Source: Candidatus Peribacteria bacterium (lineage in GTDB: Bacteria > Patescibacteria > JAEDAM01 > Absconditabacterales > Absconditicoccaceae). Taken from it: a DNA stretch of 7,466 bases. The translations under genes and the position numbers were made by a program. How positions within the stretch are numbered: the stretch's first letter is position 1; each line of letters begins with the position of its first letter. Location: NCBI GenBank assembly GCA_031288635.1, contig JAITQZ010000094.1, forward strand, positions 1 to 7,466, in the 5' to 3' direction. The notes under the pieces were generated by a model. The model ran no database searches, was not told the origin of the DNA, and was given only the letters and a program-made list of their open reading frames with translations. Below, one piece after another: positions 155 to 7,320 of the stretch.

Positions 155-183
155 CTGAAAAAAAGGCGCATTGATGCTATACT
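155..183 (+). promoter_or_regulatory. Sigma-70 type promoter of the five-gene operon
   Basis: A -10 hexamer TATACT at 178-183 matches TATAAT at five of six positions. Exactly 17 bases upstream, CTGAAA at 155-160 matches the -35 consensus TTGACA at four of six. Transcription would start near 190, giving a leader of about 46 nt before the ATG at 236. No comparable promoter was noticed at the later gene junctions, which are too short to hold one. The region is AT-rich, so chance hexamers are a risk, but the spacing and the position just upstream of the first gene support the call. Confidence 0.55.
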
Positions 184-235: not shown

Positions 236-2101
236 ATGGGAAGACCATTTGAACAAGAATTAAAGGCGATAACGGGAACCTATCATATCTGTTCAAGGTA
301 TGATTATGATAGTTTGCGTAAGTATATTAAAGAGGCAATTGCTGATCCAATAATAGCCGTTGGGTCAGGCGGATCATTTTCTGTAGCAACTGCGTTTTGT
401 GTTTTAATAGAATCTTTTGGAGGATATGCGAAGGCAATTACGCCTTTTGAATTACTGAATGAGAAAAATACATATAAATGTCATATTGTATTATTTACTG
501 CAGGTGGGAGTAATCCTGATACGATAAACGCATATAGATATATCAAAAAACTAGAACCATTAAGTACTTATGTCATATGCGCAAAACAAGATAGTATAAT
601 TGCTAGTGAAATGCAGAAATATTATGATTATAATATTCAATCAGTTGCTATCCCAAATGGGAAAGATGGCTTTTTGGCAGTAAACTCTACAATGGGAATG
701 CTGTCTATGTTCCGAACGTTATACCATACCATCAAGTTCACGGATGACGACAAAGAAGTCATCATATGGGATGAAGTGAGTATTGATAACAATATATACG
801 ATAGAAAAACAATTATTGCTTTAGGAGGCAGATTAACTATGCCTGTCGCTATCGACTTTGAGTCGAAATGTACAGAGGCAGGTCTAGTACAAGTGCAAGT
901 AGCCAACTTAAGAAATTTTGCACATGGTCGACATCATTGGATTGCCAAAAACAAAGATACAACAGGGATTATTTGTTTTATTACTCATCAAGATAAAGAG
1001 TTAGCAGAAAAAACACTTCGGTATATTCCTGAAATTCCCAAGGTGGTAATCGAAAGTAGCCATAACAATATAGATTCTTTCCCAGAGTTGTTCTCTCAAA
1101 TGTTTCATGTGGTTATGGGGTTTGGAAAGCAACGAGGGATTGATCCAGGGAGACCTCAAGTACCTGAGTTTGGAAGGAGGATTTATCATATCAACTACAA
1201 TCTCACTAAACATGATTTCGAATTACACGATAGAGAGAAAAATCTTTTTAAAAGGGCTCTATATAGAAAAAATTCAGCGGTGTTCAAATCAGAAAATCAA
1301 GATTTCTATAATCACTATTTATTGGGATACAATAAATTCAAAGAAGCCCTTACTTCTAATTCATATAATGCAATTGTTTTGGACTATGATAATACTGTGG
1401 TCTTGGCTAACGATGTCAACTCTTTAAGTTATCGCACAATCGTTAATCATATTATTGAGTTGCTAAAAAATGGAGTTACCGTCGGTTTTGCAACAGGAAG
1501 AGGGAAATCAATCTGGGATTCTTTGAGAAAAGTACTCCCTGAAAACTTGTGGACAAATGTTTGGATAGGTTACTATAGTGGTGCATACATCAAAAACTTA
1601 ACGGAAGACGTTGAGAATGTCAATAAATATGAAGATATTGAATTATTGAATATTGATTTATGCAAATATAAGGGGTTTGATGATTGCTTGAAATATAAGA
1701 ACTCCCAGATAACAATTATTGCTGATAAATGTAAGCGGAGTTGGATGCTCGGTTTAATACAAGAGATAATTGAACAAAAAAAGTACAAGGTGAGGACTTC
1801 ACAATCCGACCACTCTATAGATATTATTGCAAATAGTGTTTCGAAAAAGTGTTTGCTTGATTTTTTCACTAAAGACAAGAGTCTTACTGCGCTTTGTATT
1901 GGTGACTCTGGCGATTTGCATGGAAATGATTATGATTTGCTCAATACGGAATTCGGTTTGAGTGTTGATAAAACATCGTATGCATTTGATACATGTTGGA
2001 ACTTGGCACCATTAGGGTTTACTGGTCCAGCGGCTACTCTCTACTATTTGGAGAATCTAGTGATGACAAAGGATATGGGGAATTATAAAATAAAGATATA
2101 G
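236..2101 (+). CDS. SIS-domain sugar isomerase fused to a HAD phosphatase
   Basis: A 621-residue, apparently cytosolic, two-enzyme fusion. The N-terminal half is a SIS (sugar isomerase) fold, known for binding phosphosugars: the glycine- and serine-rich loop VGSGGSF is at 42-48, a second loop TAGGSNPDT at 88-96, the second subdomain begins near 191, and FAHGRHHW at 228-235 resembles the EFxHGP-like segment of SIS isomerases. A linker with GIDPGRP and FGRRIY (301-317) leads to a HAD domain. Its motif I is DYDNT (383-387, nucleophile D383 and acid D385), motif II ATGR (419-422), motif III lysines 537/538 and motif IV GDSGDLHGND (556-565). The roughly 115 residues between motifs II and III are the right size for a C2-type cap, as in Cof and sucrose-phosphate-phosphatase relatives. 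All catalytic HAD residues are present, so phosphatase activity on a sugar phosphate is expected; the substrate cannot be read. It is the first gene of the operon and pairs logically with the PfkB kinase at the end. No signal peptide or membrane segment is visible. Confidence 0.9.
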   Translation: MGRPFEQELKAITGTYHICSRYDYDSLRKYIKEAIADPIIAVGSGGSFSVATAFCVLIESFGGYAKAITPFELLNEKNTYKCHIVLFTAGGSNPDTINAYRYIKKLEPLSTYVICAKQDSIIASEMQKYYDYNIQSVAIPNGKDGFLAVNSTMGMLSMFRTLYHTIKFTDDDKEVIIWDEVSIDNNIYDRKTIIALGGRLTMPVAIDFESKCTEAGLVQVQVANLRNFAHGRHHWIAKNKDTTGIICFITHQDKELAEKTLRYIPEIPKVVIESSHNNIDSFPELFSQMFHVVMGFGKQRGIDPGRPQVPEFGRRIYHINYNLTKHDFELHDREKNLFKRALYRKNSAVFKSENQDFYNHYLLGYNKFKEALTSNSYNAIVLDYDNTVVLANDVNSLSYRTIVNHIIELLKNGVTVGFATGRGKSIWDSLRKVLPENLWTNVWIGYYSGAYIKNLTEDVENVNKYEDIELLNIDLCKYKGFDDCLKYKNSQITIIADKCKRSWMLGLIQEIIEQKKYKVRTSQSDHSIDIIANSVSKKCLLDFFTKDKSLTALCIGDSGDLHGNDYDLLNTEFGLSVDKTSYAFDTCWNLAPLGFTGPAATLYYLENLVMTKDMGNYKIKI

Positions 2102-2123
2102 GTAATGAAGCAACGGGTGAGAT

Positions 2124-3221
2124 ATGAAGCAAGATCTAGCAAATGAATTACTTTCGACGATTATGGATTGGGAATCCAAAGATGTTGAAGAATATCGTGA
2201 ACGTTTAGAAGATATTGCAGAATTAAAATATGATCGCTATCAGCAATATCGTCCGGGGGGAAGATTTTTAGAAAACCTAACTATTTGGCTTAACCAATTT
2301 GATGAATTGGCCGAGAAAAAAGTGGCCTTTGATTTTTTGTTGCAAAGGCTGATTTTCATTTCACCTGATGAATTAAATCATTTAGTAGGTATGGTTTTCC
2401 CCGATATAATCAAATTGATTCTCAAAGAAGAGTCGCGAAAAATACAAAAAGAGGAAGAACTTGAACTTTCAATTGAAGATAAACTTGTGTTGCTCGAGGT
2501 ATTGAGAAATGAGTCTTTATTTTTAGGGTTAAGCGATGGGGCCAGAATTGATGTATTTAGAAGATTAACTTCGGAGTTGAACCATGAACAAATCTGTTTG
2601 AGTTATGAAATACCTGACAGCAAATATGATGACATTATGGAGGCTATCATAAAGCAGATCGATAGTATGAAATTGGGAGAAGAGTTGAAAAGGATTGCAA
2701 GTCCACCGTCAATCAGGAATATTTTCCTTCTTGATGACTTTTCGGCGAGTGGTATCAGTTTTATTCGGCAAGAGAAAGATGATAATGGGAATAAAATATG
2801 GAAAGGGAAAATCAGCAAATTAATCAAATCATTTAAAGGAAACGGTTTTAATTTATCAACAATTAAGGTCGTAATAATTCTATATGCTGCTACAGATAGT
2901 GCTATTACACACATAAAAGACAATCTATCCGAGTATAATCAAGAAAATGAGATTGCTATGGATTTCGATGTTCGGGCCATACAAATAGTTCAGCCCTATC
3001 AGTTATCTACTAAAGAGAATGCGTTATTTAAAAAGTATTTCGATGATTGTATTATAGACTCTCATTATAAAAAAGGAAAACACGAAAAACCATTTTTGGG
3101 CTTTGATGAATGTGGTTTACCGATAGTGCTTTATCACAATACACCGAACAATTCGTTTCCTATCATATGGAGTACGGATAATGCTTTATTCCCACGAGTA
3201 ACTCGTCATAAGGATGTGTGA
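2124..3221 (+). CDS. Phosphoribosyltransferase-like protein, PRTase-CE type
   Basis: A 365-residue protein starting 22 nt after the SIS-HAD stop, with GGGTGA (2115-2120) just ahead of the ATG. The N-terminal ~190 residues are charged and mostly helical, with an RPGGRF segment at 43-48. The core strand-loop FLLDDFSASG at 201-210 matches the PRPP-binding loop of type I phosphoribosyltransferases (hydrophobic strand, two acidic residues, then a small-residue loop that holds the 5-phosphate). A following strand VVIILYAAT (249-257) fits the next beta strand of the Rossmann-like fold. The C-terminal block around 331-358, with HNTPNNSFP and ALFPR, resembles the tail I recall for PRTase-CE proteins found in predicted prokaryotic conflict systems. 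The family is usually encoded next to an ORC/CDC6-like ATPase, as here. Whether it transfers a phosphoribosyl group, breaks down PRPP or nucleotides, or only binds a ligand is unknown. The PRPP loop is clear; the family name is from memory. Confidence 0.8.
   Translation: MKQDLANELLSTIMDWESKDVEEYRERLEDIAELKYDRYQQYRPGGRFLENLTIWLNQFDELAEKKVAFDFLLQRLIFISPDELNHLVGMVFPDIIKLILKEESRKIQKEEELELSIEDKLVLLEVLRNESLFLGLSDGARIDVFRRLTSELNHEQICLSYEIPDSKYDDIMEAIIKQIDSMKLGEELKRIASPPSIRNIFLLDDFSASGISFIRQEKDDNGNKIWKGKISKLIKSFKGNGFNLSTIKVVIILYAATDSAITHIKDNLSEYNQENEIAMDFDVRAIQIVQPYQLSTKENALFKKYFDDCIIDSHYKKGKHEKPFLGFDECGLPIVLYHNTPNNSFPIIWSTDNALFPRVTRHKDV
3210..3214 (+). promoter_or_regulatory. Ribosome binding site deciding the ATPase start
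   Basis: AAGGA inside the last codons of the PRTase-like gene sits 9 nt before ATG 3224 but only 3 nt before an in-frame GTG at 3218. ATG 3224 is therefore preferred. The GTG would overlap the preceding TGA as GTGA, so coupling of the two genes is likely with either start. Confidence 0.6.
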
Positions 3222-3223
3222 TT

Positions 3224-5125
3224 ATGATTCCGAGAAATCCATTCTTTATTGGAAATACTGAAAAAATTGACACGGATTCATTATTTTTGTCGCTATTCAA
3301 CGCAAAGGTAACAGAATATATTAAGCCTGAGTACCTTCATAAAGTAGTTTTTTTCAGAAGTACCCCGGGGGCTGGGAAATCTAGTATTTTTCGTTTATTT
3401 TCACCCAGTGTTTTGCGGGAAATTGTAGGCAACTCAAACCCAAATTATGAAGAAACGCGAATTTTTTTACAAGAACTATCTGTTATTACAAATAACAATA
3501 TTAACTTATTAGGAGTACAACTATCATGTGCAGGGAATTATAGCATTATCGATGATTTGTATGATAATGGGAAAAGGACACAGTTGTTCTTCGCGTTATT
3601 AAATCTGCGTATTCTTCGTACCACACTAAAAAATCTATTAGTATTGAATAAAATGCATCAACAAGATCTTAGCCATATCACTTTTGTTGATATACCTCCA
3701 GACATTGCAAGTTGTATAGATGTAAAATGGAATGGAGAAGATATTTACAATTGGGCAATAAACGAAGAGAATAGAATATGTAGAGCGATGGATGATATTA
3801 ATGATCCGGGCGCTATTCCGTTCGCTCTTAATTCATTATCGTTTTTGTCAATTATCGGTGCCAACAACTTACTAATCGATAATCAGAGCACAACCGAGCA
3901 TACCCTATTAATGCTTGATGATTTGCATTTGCTAACGGAAAGACAACGTAATGAGTTGCGCGAAGAAGTTTTTAAACAGAAATCCACTATTGGAATATGG
4001 ATAGCTGAAAGAATATCTGCTTTGACATATGATAAGATACTTGGGACAACTGGAGATGAACCCAGAGATTATATTGAACTTCTTGTTGAAAAGGAGATTA
4101 ACCTAAGAGAAAAACAGTTATTTCTAAATGATATTGCGGATAGAAGAGTAAAAATCAATTTCAATGATACAATAGGAAATTATGCTTCTTGCATTGAGGA
4201 AAATTTCACAGATGGTTTTAAGCTAGAAAATACAATATCAAAATTAAAAGAATACATATTTGAGAATGGACTAAACAAAGAACTATTTACTTACTTTACT
4301 GAAAACTATCATGAGAATTATTCTGGTGCGATTTTCTTACGCGCGTTGAAAATACTCATAGATAGGAGGTTGGGAGAGGCTCAATTAAGCTTCTTGCCAA
4401 AGAAAAATATTCCTATTGCATATGTTATTTCAGAGGATGGGAAAAAGACCAAAGTAGATGACTCGGCATTAATGTCCAGCGCGGAATTTTATCTATGCAT
4501 TGAAAATAAACTTCCATTCTATTACGGCATGAAAAAATTGTCGGCACTCTCATCGAATAATATAGAACAATTCCTAGAGTTTGCTGGAGCGATTTTTGAG
4601 AGAAGAATCGCAGAAAGTTTTACATCGTCTAAAAAGAGGAAAGGCAAGATATCAGCTACCGAGCAAGAAAAAATCATTAAAAAGATTGCTCAGAAAAAAT
4701 GGGATTCAATCACTAGGCAATATACCAATTACAAAGATATTAATAATCTTTTAGAGAACATATGCTCCATATGCGTTGAGAACAGGGATAAAGCGCTAGC
4801 GTCATATTCGGGAGGTTCATATACTGGGATAGGTATAAATGAAGATCAGTTTAAAGAGTTGTCTGTTGCAGAATCCAACATTGATGTAACTAGGGCACTA
4901 GCAAATGCAGTTGCATCCAATTATTTGGTTGTTAGAGACGTTTCGCAGGGAAACCAAAATGAGAAATGGAAAGTTTTCTATCTTAACAGATGGATCTGCG
5001 CTTTGAATAATTTACCCTTACAATACGGTGGTTGGCGTCCATTAGCGAAAAATAAATATAAGGTCCTTACTCAGAAAACTCCTAGTATTGCGTTCACGAC
5101 ACTGGAGGATTATGCTAATGCATGA
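3224..5125 (+). CDS. ORC/CDC6-like AAA+ ATPase
   Basis: A 633-residue P-loop ATPase. Walker A is STPGAGKSS at 46-54, with K52 and S53 for nucleotide phosphate and magnesium; the usual first glycine of the loop is serine (S46). Walker B is LLMLDDLH at 228-235 with acidic D232 and D233, followed by IGIWIAER (256-263) in the place of the sensor-1 strand. About 175 residues separate Walker A and B, far more than in a standard ORC/Cdc6 protein, so an insertion of roughly 100 residues is implied (about 70-200, containing a predicted helical part). A lysine-rich, charged helix (about 466-495) precedes a C-terminal region (about 540-610) that could be a winged helix, ending in LPLQYGGWRP. ORC/CDC6-like ATPases of this sort are known from computational surveys as companions of PRTase-CE proteins; they are not replication initiators. 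It begins 2 nt after the PRTase-like gene and overlaps the next gene by 8 nt, so its product probably works with both. DNA or partner remodelling driven by ATP is the likely role; the trigger is unknown. Confidence 0.85.
   Translation: MIPRNPFFIGNTEKIDTDSLFLSLFNAKVTEYIKPEYLHKVVFFRSTPGAGKSSIFRLFSPSVLREIVGNSNPNYEETRIFLQELSVITNNNINLLGVQLSCAGNYSIIDDLYDNGKRTQLFFALLNLRILRTTLKNLLVLNKMHQQDLSHITFVDIPPDIASCIDVKWNGEDIYNWAINEENRICRAMDDINDPGAIPFALNSLSFLSIIGANNLLIDNQSTTEHTLLMLDDLHLLTERQRNELREEVFKQKSTIGIWIAERISALTYDKILGTTGDEPRDYIELLVEKEINLREKQLFLNDIADRRVKINFNDTIGNYASCIEENFTDGFKLENTISKLKEYIFENGLNKELFTYFTENYHENYSGAIFLRALKILIDRRLGEAQLSFLPKKNIPIAYVISEDGKKTKVDDSALMSSAEFYLCIENKLPFYYGMKKLSALSSNNIEQFLEFAGAIFERRIAESFTSSKKRKGKISATEQEKIIKKIAQKKWDSITRQYTNYKDINNLLENICSICVENRDKALASYSGGSYTGIGINEDQFKELSVAESNIDVTRALANAVASNYLVVRDVSQGNQNEKWKVFYLNRWICALNNLPLQYGGWRPLAKNKYKVLTQKTPSIAFTTLEDYANA
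5104..5108 (+). promoter_or_regulatory. Ribosome binding site deciding the fourth start
   Basis: GGAGG lies within the final codons of the ATPase gene. It is 9 nt before ATG 5118, only 3 nt before ATG 5112, and downstream of the TTG at 5088. ATG 5118 is the best start, which puts the initiation site upstream of the ATPase stop (5123-5125). Confidence 0.65.
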
Positions 5126-6215
5126 CTGGATGAATTACAATATGTTAGTGGACAATCAAATTACGGAGTATTTTATCGAGCATAAAATACAAGATCAACA
5201 CAATCTACTCATAATGGGTGAAGGTTTTGATAGCCGGATGTGTAAAGGTCTGGAGTGCCTATCTGGGTTTTTGGAAAATTCAGAAATTTGGAAAATCCAT
5301 TACGCTGAAGCAAAAGACTCTCAATCGGAAGCGTATAAAAGCCTTATTGATGAAAATATCAAAACATTTAATAGTTTAACGAAAAGTATAAAGACAGAAT
5401 TAGCTATATTGAAAATGTGGACAGAGGGTTCTGAAGAACGCTATATTGCAGAAATACAAGCGACTAAATTTATTAAAGATAATCAAGGGAATATAGGAAT
5501 TTTTGATAATGTTATCATTGATATTAGTGCATTGCCACAATCGATTTACTATCCAATGTTAATTAAGTTATTCAGAGATTGGATAGAAAAAAAGAATATT
5601 TTTATTCTTGCTACTGAAAACTATATGACTGACATGAACACACATCCAGTCGAGTTAGCTGAGACGGCTCATAAAATGCATGGATTTGTTGGAACCGGGA
5701 ATGTTGCAAACGACGAAGGGATCATTGTTTGGTTCCCCGTTTTAGGAGAGATTAATCCCCCTATGTTGCAAAAGTATTATGATTATTTACAAAAAACATA
5801 TAGTAAAATCAACGAAATTTGCCCTGTTTTACCTTTCCCATCGGTAGACGTGAGACGACTAGATACGATAATTGATAGCTATCGAAATTTGATTTTCAGC
5901 CAATGGCAAATCGAAAAGGGCAATTTAATATATGTTGCAGAAAACAACCCGTTTCAGGTCTATCGAAAATTATTTGAAACGGCTACGCACTATGATAAAG
6001 TCATGAAGCCGATCGGCAAGTGTAGATATGTATTTTCAACAATAACGAGTAAACTTATGGGGATTGGCACCCTCCTATCATCCTACGCTTTGAGAGATGA
6101 TGGATACAGTGTAGATTTCCTGAATATTAGCAATAAAGGATACATGTTAAATAAAAGTGGTACAGAAATCTCTTCACAAATCTACTGTTTGTGCATGAAC
6201 GATAAGGGCCTTTAG
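5118..6215 (+). CDS. Unrecognised alpha/beta protein, probably Rossmannoid
   Basis: A 365-residue soluble protein whose family I cannot name. Several features look conserved rather than random. An N-terminal strand-turn NLLIMGEGFDSRMC (29-42) resembles the first strand and loop of a Rossmann-like fold. The strand VIIDISALP (132-140) is followed by a helix with YYP. A proline-rich block PFPSVDVRRLD (239-249) begins the second half. Next come a strand IYVAENNPFQVYR (271-283), and SKLMGIGTLLSSYAL (311-325), a strand-to-helix or ligand-loop candidate. The pattern suggests two alpha/beta halves. No nuclease, protease, kinase or membrane signature is visible. Its start lies inside the ATPase gene with an 8-nt overlap, so the two are translationally coupled and probably form a pair. 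In such cassettes the otherwise unplaced protein is often the sensor or effector, but that is inference. The gene itself is certain; the role is open. Confidence 0.82.
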   Translation: MHDWMNYNMLVDNQITEYFIEHKIQDQHNLLIMGEGFDSRMCKGLECLSGFLENSEIWKIHYAEAKDSQSEAYKSLIDENIKTFNSLTKSIKTELAILKMWTEGSEERYIAEIQATKFIKDNQGNIGIFDNVIIDISALPQSIYYPMLIKLFRDWIEKKNIFILATENYMTDMNTHPVELAETAHKMHGFVGTGNVANDEGIIVWFPVLGEINPPMLQKYYDYLQKTYSKINEICPVLPFPSVDVRRLDTIIDSYRNLIFSQWQIEKGNLIYVAENNPFQVYRKLFETATHYDKVMKPIGKCRYVFSTITSKLMGIGTLLSSYALRDDGYSVDFLNISNKGYMLNKSGTEISSQIYCLCMNDKGL

Positions 6216-6228
6216 TGTAGGAGAAAAC

Positions 6229-7242
6229 ATGAATCGAATTCTTGGTGCCGGATTAGCATGTGTTGATATAATATATGATAATAATAATGACAACAACAAA
6301 ATTGAGTTTCAAAATGGGGGAACATGTGCTAATGTGCTTTCAGTATTGGCGCAGTTAGGTTGGGATGCTGAAATACTAAAACCAAGATATGCTGATTTTT
6401 TCGATACTTTTTTAAATGAAACCTTCTGTAATCTGAATGTAAAATGCATGTACTATAAGTATTCAAAAAAAACAACACCACGAGTTATAGAATTGCTTAA
6501 TCAAAGGAAACACATTTTTAAGACATGTTGTCCGAGTTGCGCTCGGAAAATCACATCTTTAGATATGCCTTCGGTTAATGACATCGAAAAATTGGATTTG
6601 TTTTATAAAGACTATGCGCTTTTTTTTCATGATCGTGTTTCTCCCGGGGTGAATCAGATAATAGCGGAGATGAAGAAGAATAGAAAAGTAGTGATGTATG
6701 AGCCGAATGGGTTCAGAAATGCAAAAATCTTTATGAATCATTGCAAGAAATGTGACATTGTCAAGTTTTCTGGATCGCAAGTACCAATGGAAATTGCGGA
6801 AAGAATAAGGATTGACGCCTATAACAACGAGACAAAAATTATCATTAATACCAACGGGGAAAACGGATTAGTATTTGCTCATCGAAAAAAAAATGGACTC
6901 ATGACCTCATGGCAAAGAATCCCTCCATTTACTTCAAGGCAAGTATTTGATACATCTGGAGCAGGCGATTGGTTTACAGCAGGATTCCTGGATAAGCTAC
7001 TCAGAAAGTTTTCAATTCTTCCAACTGGAATTGAGGAAGAATTTATTGTTGCCTGTATTGAGGAGGGAAAAAGGAATGCCAAAATATGTTGTACCTCGTT
7101 AGGAGCACAAGGAGCTTTTTATAGTAATACTCAAATAAAAAAACTGCGTATGAATGCTACAGCTATCATGTCATCATACCCTTCTAAAATAGCCATAAAA
7201 ACGGAGAACAACTATTGTACAAAATGTTTTTTAGAATTATGA
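6229..7242 (+). CDS. PfkB/ribokinase-family sugar or nucleoside kinase
   Basis: A 337-residue kinase of usual family length. The N-terminal strand GAGLACVDII (6-15) and the substrate-side GGTCANVLSVLAQLGW (30-45) match the first PfkB signature region. NTNGENGLVF (207-216) matches the TxGxxG strand near the ATP site, and DTSGAGDWFTAGF (241-253) is the second PfkB signature, with the anion hole GAGD (244-247) and catalytic base D247 intact. ATP-dependent phosphorylation of a sugar, nucleoside or similar hydroxyl compound is expected; the substrate is unknown. Unusual for the family are three CxxC pairs: CPSC at 101-104 (next to C100), CKKC at 172-175 and CTKC at 330-333 near the C terminus, which suggest bound zinc. 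The AGGAG site at 6219-6223, 5 nt before the ATG, and the 13-nt gap place it as the last gene of the operon. It contains three homopolymer runs of 8-9 bases but no frameshift is seen. Confidence 0.92.
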   Translation: MNRILGAGLACVDIIYDNNNDNNKIEFQNGGTCANVLSVLAQLGWDAEILKPRYADFFDTFLNETFCNLNVKCMYYKYSKKTTPRVIELLNQRKHIFKTCCPSCARKITSLDMPSVNDIEKLDLFYKDYALFFHDRVSPGVNQIIAEMKKNRKVVMYEPNGFRNAKIFMNHCKKCDIVKFSGSQVPMEIAERIRIDAYNNETKIIINTNGENGLVFAHRKKNGLMTSWQRIPPFTSRQVFDTSGAGDWFTAGFLDKLLRKFSILPTGIEEEFIVACIEEGKRNAKICCTSLGAQGAFYSNTQIKKLRMNATAIMSSYPSKIAIKTENNYCTKCFLEL

Positions 7243-7283: not shown

Positions 7284-7320
7284 AACGCGCCAAGCGAATT
7301 CGAACGCATGGCGCGTTTTC
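7284..7320 (+). terminator. Probable rho-independent terminator of the operon
   Basis: AACGCGCCA (7284-7292) and TGGCGCGTT (7309-7317) form a perfect 9-bp, GC-rich stem. An inner GCG/CGC pairing (7294-7296 with 7305-7307) can extend it past an A-A mismatch, leaving an 8-nt loop. The stem runs into TTTTC (7316-7320). It lies 41 nt after the kinase stop, where an operon terminator is expected. The T-run is short and broken by C, so efficiency is uncertain. The opposite direction has no good T-run. Confidence 0.62.

Follow-up and report, generated by a model that had tools for sequence, protein, structure and literature searches.

A candidate mobile defence cassette that joins a phosphoribosyltransferase and an ORC-like ATPase to a tandem CARF protein and sugar enzymes

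The DprA-PRTase pair of P2-like phages protects against T7 and lambda; its phosphoribosyltransferase (PRTase) has been suggested to be an effector activated by the DNA-sensing partner, and the mode of action of PRTase effectors in retrons is described as unknown (PMC9122126). NADAR proteins are presented as enzymes that break the N-glycosidic bonds of ribosyl groups and serve as the antitoxin of DarT1 (PMC11543638, PMC9503650). Here we analyzed a 7,466-nucleotide stretch of a Candidatus Peribacteria bacterium (contig JAITQZ010000094.1, referred to below as the window), in which five genes encode a SIS-HAD protein, a PRTase, an ORC-like ATPase, a CARF protein and a PfkB kinase. The Pfam families of the PRTase and the ATPase (PF24390 and PF24389) bear consecutive accessions and probably stem from one survey, which we take to be that of Nicastro et al. 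2023, and CARF6, seen here only as the name of a PADLOC model, is presumably a family of the 2020 CARF census (Makarova 2020). The PRTase-CE, ORC and CARF6 families were already known to earlier surveys, and the five-gene operon may already have been predicted there; among the literature matches listed, no paper dealt with the five-gene cassette. We find that the five genes make up a recurrent cassette of two modules, and with a probability of roughly one half we read it as a mobile defence (anti-mobile-element) system that is gated by a small molecule and employs a predicted phosphoribosyl-type effector.

Gene content of the operon

All five genes lie on the + strand. Gene 1 (236..2101, start used ATG 236) encodes the SIS-HAD protein, a double SIS domain with a HAD-IIB part, and is followed by gene 2 (2124..3221) for a PRTase-CE protein, the predicted effector, gene 3 (3224..5125, start used ATG 3224) for an ORC-CDC6-like AAA+ ATPase, gene 4 (5118..6215, start used ATG 5118) for a tandem CARF-fold protein of the PADLOC family CARF6, and gene 5 (6229..7242) for a PfkB-family carbohydrate/nucleoside kinase. 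A preliminary description of this DNA, made from the letters alone, had proposed a five-gene operon with junctions of 22 nucleotides, 2 nucleotides, an 8-nucleotide overlap and 13 nucleotides, and this layout is borne out by the five open reading frames. The start of gene 3 at 3224 agrees with homologues that open with M-PRNPF, and a GGAGG at 5104-5108 is found 9 nucleotides 5' of the gene 4 start.

Gene 2 matched PRTase-CE (PF24390) with an E-value of 4e-24, above the curated cut-off, and has a type I phosphoribosyltransferase fold with an intact loop for phosphoribosyl pyrophosphate (PRPP); D204/D205 are among its conserved residues. It also matched the PADLOC model PRTase_III-A with an E-value of 2e-16. 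Gene 3 matched the ORC-CDC6-like family PF24389 (E 8e-20; 71.5 bits against a cut-off of 27), and, when numbered from the codon at 3218, its Walker A residue K54 is kept in 47/48 sequences and both the Walker B residue D234 and R283 in 51/51.

The preliminary description had called gene 4 an unrecognised alpha/beta protein. This has to be revised, as the protein matches CARF6 (PDLC01910) with an E-value of 1.6e-74 over residues 14-360 of the reading that opens at 5088, and its model fold agrees, with CARF/SAVED proteins filling the 26 best rows of a VIA-align comparison. Sequence and predicted model together identify gene 4 as a tandem CARF-fold protein, to which the likely ligand-sensing role therefore shifts. 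Foldseek placed the C-terminal domains of cotransporters and universal stress proteins at the top, which we judge to be generic Rossmann likeness given the VIA-align rows. A lysine numbered K315 is among the conserved residues of the CARF protein. No fused effector domain was seen on gene 4, and sequence searches of genes 2, 3 and 4 against solved structures gave no convincing match.

For gene 1, the matches to the SIS family in Pfam (E 0.0063) and to HAD-IIB in NCBIfam (E 4e-6) both fall below the family cut-offs, so that its assignment leans more heavily on conserved motifs and on solved structures found by profile comparison. The SIS part matched 2aml (E 1.8e-5) and 8eol (E 0.0036), as well as 3eua, a putative fructose-aminoacid-6-phosphate deglycase, and GlmS-like enzymes. 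A Glu and a His are catalytic in double-SIS isomerases, and the Glu and His of gene 1 align with a Glu and a His of 2aml and 8eol. The residues G43-S44-G45-G46, E209, E214 and H230-G-R are kept in 44/44 aligned homologues (S47 in 43/44), and the HAD residues D383/D385/T387/K537/D557/D565 in 45/45. Gene 1 is accordingly predicted to be a GlmS-type double SIS protein with Glu and His in place, isomerase- or deglycase-like in character, that is joined to a HAD-IIB phosphatase.

Gene 5 matched PfkB (PF00294) with an E-value of 3e-16, above the cut-off, and retains G244, G246 and D247 in 47/47 rows and A245 in 38/47. Its top NCBIfam match was fructokinase, below the cut-off of that model, and it weakly matched TIGR02198 (rfaE domain I); a sequence search against solved structures gave no match at the strict cut-off of 1e-20. 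Two CxxC pairs, one in the middle of the protein (residues about 100-107) and one at its C-terminus, are both present in 18/49 rows. They could possibly form a zinc site in some lineages, and with this count we rejected such a site as a general trait of the PfkB proteins.

A recurrent cassette of two modules

A scan anchored on gene 4 collected 54 genome loci. Profiles were made from these loci and used to locate the genes in them in all six frames. The cassette is complete in 46 of the 54, seven are truncated by contig ends and one is an exception; with co-location at this level, the five-gene grouping is far beyond chance. Sorted by record titles, the loci cover seven bacterial phyla and two archaeal groups, with 27 from Bacteroidota, 10 from Pseudomonadota, five each from Bacillota and Acidobacteriota, three from Planctomycetota, one each from Nitrospirota and a cyanobacterium, and two from archaea (Heimdallarchaeota and Methanoregulaceae); L010 and L011, both within the 54, are near-copies. 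In 40/46 complete loci the genes stand on one strand in the order SIS-HAD, PRTase, ORC, CARF, PfkB; L023, with its ORC gene split into two pieces, is one of these 40. PfkB is inverted within the usual order in L012, and five alphaproteobacteria carry the order SIS-HAD, PfkB, PRTase, ORC, CARF. L031 only seemed to have lost SIS-HAD, PRTase and PfkB; this was rejected as a longest-reading-frame artefact, which the six-frame search removed.

The cassette is rare. Seed genomes counted, the ORC profile matched in 3/295, 2/289, 2/246 and 1/291 sampled genomes. Four of these matches were not seeds, and three of them (L075, L089, L091) are flanked by the other four genes, the fourth (L077) being a weak fragment. 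SIS-HAD matched in 13/247 genomes, at full length in two, both of them ORC-positive; the other 11 matches were weak and partial and fell in the HAD part or close to it. The gene 4 profile matched once in every one of 30 cassette genomes. Such rarity across so broad a range of hosts suggests horizontal transfer. A gene 4 relative was present in 17 plasmid records, every one of which (17/17) carries the cassette, in several genera of Alpha- and Betaproteobacteria and one actinobacterium. The R. lentis plasmid copy (L106) lacks PfkB, most genes of L105 are in several pieces, so that this copy looks decayed, and a single gene is split in two in both L095 and L102.

The cassette consists of two modules, PRTase-ORC-CARF (module A) and SIS-HAD-PfkB (module B), because protein distances and block rearrangements of gene order divide it along the same line. 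Over 44 loci, the window included, distance correlations were 0.92-0.97 within PRTase-ORC-CARF, 0.86 between SIS-HAD and PfkB and 0.70-0.82 between the groups, as pairwise values uncorrected for relatedness or protein length. The near-copy L011, the loci L017, L023, L075, L079, L089 and L091 and those cut by contig ends were left out of this comparison. As for gene order, PRTase-ORC-CARF precedes SIS-HAD-PfkB in L094, L101, L102 and L105, and two plasmids, S. meliloti pRRI128_5 and R. tumorigenes pRt1078, carry the PRTase-ORC-CARF trio twice but the SIS-HAD-PfkB pair only once (L095:862-13021 and L099:3301-17547). One pair for two trios points toward the idea that the pair acts in trans on a diffusible compound.

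By profile, a NADAR gene was found in 13/76 loci, all of them proteobacterial (L036, L037, L041, L042, L047, L095, L096, L099, L101, L102, L104, L105 and L106); the 76 scanned loci count L075 and L079 separately, two names for one position of a single genome. All five NADAR genes tested matched PF08719, with E-values of 4e-24 to 1e-25, and in L106 the gene overlaps SIS-HAD by 4 nucleotides. This association would fit ribosyl chemistry around the PRTase. A helix-turn-helix regulator gene lies beside NADAR in several loci. Five alphaproteobacterial loci have an accessory open reading frame of 163-252 residues that partly overlaps the opposite-strand NADAR gene and matched helix-turn-helix families in two of five cases tested.

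Neighbouring genes and other features

The flanks hold no family common to more than 5/53 loci, so that no consistent link to metabolism was seen, most flank clusters having no name. Among the recurring families examined were an alphaproteobacterial helix-turn-helix gene, histidine kinases (4 loci), RND efflux pumps (3 loci) and integrases (two clusters); for one recurring cluster no solved relative was found.

Some copies adjoin or enclose defence genes. Gabija genes are directly upstream of the cassette in L003, a type I restriction subunit lies near the 5' side in L005 and an hsdM-like gene occurs in L023. AbiEi/AbiEii genes are nested between CARF and PfkB in L051 and in the closely related L053; in L052, AAA and RloB-like genes occupy this place. 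PADLOC families matched elsewhere in the flanks include SduA, AbiLi, AbiGi, dCTPase and candidate PDC families. A gene annotated as Shedu is close to L107 and one with a caspase domain is close to L101, and integrases or recombinases are found near some copies. One of the PADLOC flank scans covered 128/145 proteins; the remainder were eight proteins from L049, long proteins from L006, L030 and L041, and reading frames, accessory or NADAR, located between module genes.

Further observations concern individual neighbourhoods. TnsB, TnsC and TniQ profiles of type V-K transposons matched among flank proteins, with the locus not resolved. About 1.5 kb from the cassette in L039 (L039:11550-14778), a cytidine-deaminase-domain protein overlaps a DUF6791-ThiF protein on the opposite strand, possibly a separate conflict pair. 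On a Sulfitobacter plasmid (L097:6961-13987) the cassette sits between conjugation genes, with a type IV secretion coupling-type gene upstream and virB11 downstream. A gene of the RHE_PE00001 family or DUF1612 is annotated near L093, L095, L098, L099, L101, L103, L107 and L109; in L093, L098, L107 and L109 it is found immediately 5' of the cassette, and the L093 copy matched DUF1612 and HTH_13.

In the window itself, a terminator-like hairpin followed by a U-rich stretch lies directly 3' of gene 5 (7284..7317, + strand). The segment 7243-7330 folds with -26.9 kcal/mol (z -4.9; 0/200 shuffles equally good), and the hairpin was not picked up by a consensus scan. On the 5' side of gene 1 there is a weak sigma-70-like promoter candidate with an extended -10 element (155..183, + strand; 9/12 matches), the window holding 42 such sites against 32.6 +/- 5.3 expected, which is not clearly above chance. 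GC content is 0.42 in positions 1-500 and about 0.35 in the operon, the end segment 7243-7466 being flagged alongside, and the shift at 1-500 possibly marks the boundary of an inserted unit. The window gave no Rfam match, with Rfam coverage of the retron III-A type of non-coding RNA unchecked, and weak matches only in PHROGs; no close DNA relative was found among plasmids or E. coli genomes.

Proposed mechanism, alternatives and related systems

The defence reading draws on the completeness of the cassette in 46/54 loci, its presence in 17/17 plasmid records, its patchy rarity, the conserved catalytic residues, the CARF fold, a PRTase family common to retron III-A effectors and the protection that the DprA-PRTase pair gives against T7 and lambda (PMC9122126), together with the nested AbiE and RloB-like genes, the module correlations, the two-trio plasmids and NADAR. 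In such a system the ORC-like ATPase would engage invading or replicating DNA, or serve as an ATP-driven switch, and the CARF protein would be the small-molecule gate. Jointly they would release the PRTase, which may then use or cleave phosphoribosyl groups (of PRPP, nucleotides or a ribosylated target), stop growth and so abort the infection. Module B, with NADAR added in some proteobacteria, would act on a compound that diffuses, a phosphosugar or a ribosyl-phosphate, and either set the CARF gate or clear the PRTase product, two rivals of similar weight. We advance more tentatively, as possible and somewhat doubtful, a new form of immunity in which a PRPP-fuelled PRTase writes a ribosyl-phosphate mark or produces such a compound. 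The isomerase-phosphatase and the kinase, in some loci joined by NADAR, would erase or remodel it, and the tandem CARF protein, working without a cyclase, would read the signal together with the ORC-like ATPase. Such chemistry would lie beyond cyclic oligonucleotides or NAD.

A number of points weigh against the defence reading. In a matched control of 20 genomes, 173 flank reading frames were compared with 179 at distant places on the same contigs, and PADLOC families of any kind at 1e-15 were about as frequent in both (about 13/173 and about 12/179, p 0.46), so that no broad defence-island excess was found by this count. System-specific family names were more frequent in flanks (9 against 2 in controls, one-sided p 0.03), under a sorting that set aside mad, SoFic, IetA, DEDDh, pVip and AriA as housekeeping or generic after the data had been seen. 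These flank counts are of family names among the matches listed and not of proteins; names may share one protein, GajA/GajB and AbiEi/AbiEii are one locus each and not independent, and the 173 contain at least three false antisense shadow reading frames of L031. With statistics this modest, the defence context rests more on the nested and adjacent examples, and some copies lie among ordinary genes, after moeA-like genes in L026 and an mnmE-like gene in L014. Searches of viral-contig and phage collections gave no relative of gene 4 at the sensitivity used, nor did phage records give any of gene 3, so there is no sign of phage carriage in the records searched. The exception among the 54 loci, in Nitratireductor (L049:9959-10804), has a gene 4 relative with the other four genes missing. 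Beyond the identity of the genes, the steps of the mechanism, including the order of events, are ones that we infer. The preliminary description had proposed asking whether the five families co-occur in the same order beside defence genes or at integrase sites. They do co-occur, in fixed or block-rearranged order across phyla, and some copies do lie beside defence genes or integrases or on plasmids, but the defence excess over controls is weak. Its reading, in which the ATPase would gate the level or detection of a sugar- or nucleotide-like molecule to give infection-triggered immunity, is partly supported.

Two alternatives give module B a role of its own. SIS-HAD and PfkB might build a new sugar or nucleotide messenger, which the tandem CARF protein would read instead of cyclic oligoadenylate and by which CARF and ORC would switch on the PRTase, a scenario that we regard as rather doubtful. 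Heptose-1-phosphate, which precedes ADP-heptose, is built by members of the isomerase, PfkB kinase and HAD phosphatase superfamilies that also occur here, and both the weak match of gene 5 to TIGR02198 and the single module B that serves two trios in L095 and L099 fit this scheme. When the 30 cassette genomes, some of them drafts, were searched with three cyclase profiles at E 1e-3, Csm1 matched in five (one over cut-off), Cmr2 in three (one) and SMODS in nine (eight). A match to none of the three in 17/30 genomes speaks for the messenger, and judging from these profiles the CARF protein seems not to be tied to known cyclases; on the other side, 13/30 genomes do have at least one match, no nucleotidyltransferase was recognised in the cassette and the CARF ligand is putative. 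Alternatively, the PRTase could be a toxin that loads phosphoribose, taken from PRPP, onto a base, a nucleotide or an amine of a protein, with NADAR, SIS-HAD and PfkB erasing the mark. We rate this as rather unlikely, even with an intact PRPP loop in gene 2, NADAR in the proteobacterial loci and a SIS part that matches 3eua and GlmS-like enzymes and shares its Glu and His columns with 2aml and 8eol. NADARs are ribosyl N-glycosidases and antitoxins, for example of DarT1 (PMC11543638, PMC9503650), yet NADAR is missing from the window and from 63/76 loci. Moreover, PRTase-CE may instead hydrolyse nucleotides, and the fructokinase match of gene 5 is below cut-off.

The remaining two alternatives take the cassette out of anti-phage defence. 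Maintenance of plasmids or islands by addiction, or competition between plasmids, is suggested by the 17 plasmid records in several genera, by the L097 copy between conjugation genes and by Phd/VapC-type genes near L099 and Phd/PemK-type genes near L109. We consider it unlikely, as many genome loci are on long, perhaps chromosomal contigs of distant phyla and, to our knowledge, CARF and ORC-like folds are unusual in addiction pairs. A purely metabolic operon, serving an unusual sugar or nucleoside and playing no part in conflict, would account for three of the five genes being sugar or ribose enzymes, for the ABC transporter and arabinofuranosidase genes near L106 and for the TRAP transporter gene near L102. 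It is nevertheless very unlikely, since no flank family passes 5/53 loci, SIS-HAD and PfkB occur together with CARF and ORC-like genes in 46/46 complete genome loci and the cassette is rare, patchy and host to nested AbiE and RloB-like genes. The absence of a transporter or catabolic regulator among the five genes, pointed out in the preliminary description and upheld by the Pfam search, likewise argues against a sugar-utilisation operon, though the RND efflux family recurs in three flanks.

If the cassette is defensive, it would be a CARF-gated system that is seemingly independent of Cas10 or CD-NTase, which would call for a ligand other than the known cyclic oligonucleotides, or for one taken over from the host. 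PRTase effectors would likewise gain a set of partners that hints at ribosyl-phosphate chemistry. Since the sensor-effector trio is cleanly split from the shared metabolite module, simple gene deletions could separate their roles.

Compared with DarT1-NADAR (PMC11543638), the cassette would share ribosyl chemistry through the NADAR genes of 13/76 loci; by Pfam, the proteins of the window include no DarT-type or ART family, and NADAR occurs only in relatives. With the CARF effectors of type III CRISPR and the SAVED effectors of CBASS it shares, by model comparison, the tandem CARF/SAVED fold, and by analogy small-molecule gating, whereas its CARF protein shows no effector domain and no Cas10 or CD-NTase was recognised among the five genes. 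The type III-A retron, composed of a reverse transcriptase, a non-coding RNA, a PRTase and a winged-helix protein, has a PRTase of the same family; its partner genes differ, and no reverse transcriptase family is found among the five proteins of the cassette. In contrast to DprA-PRTase, the partners of the PRTase here are an ORC-like ATPase and a CARF protein, and a sugar module is added.

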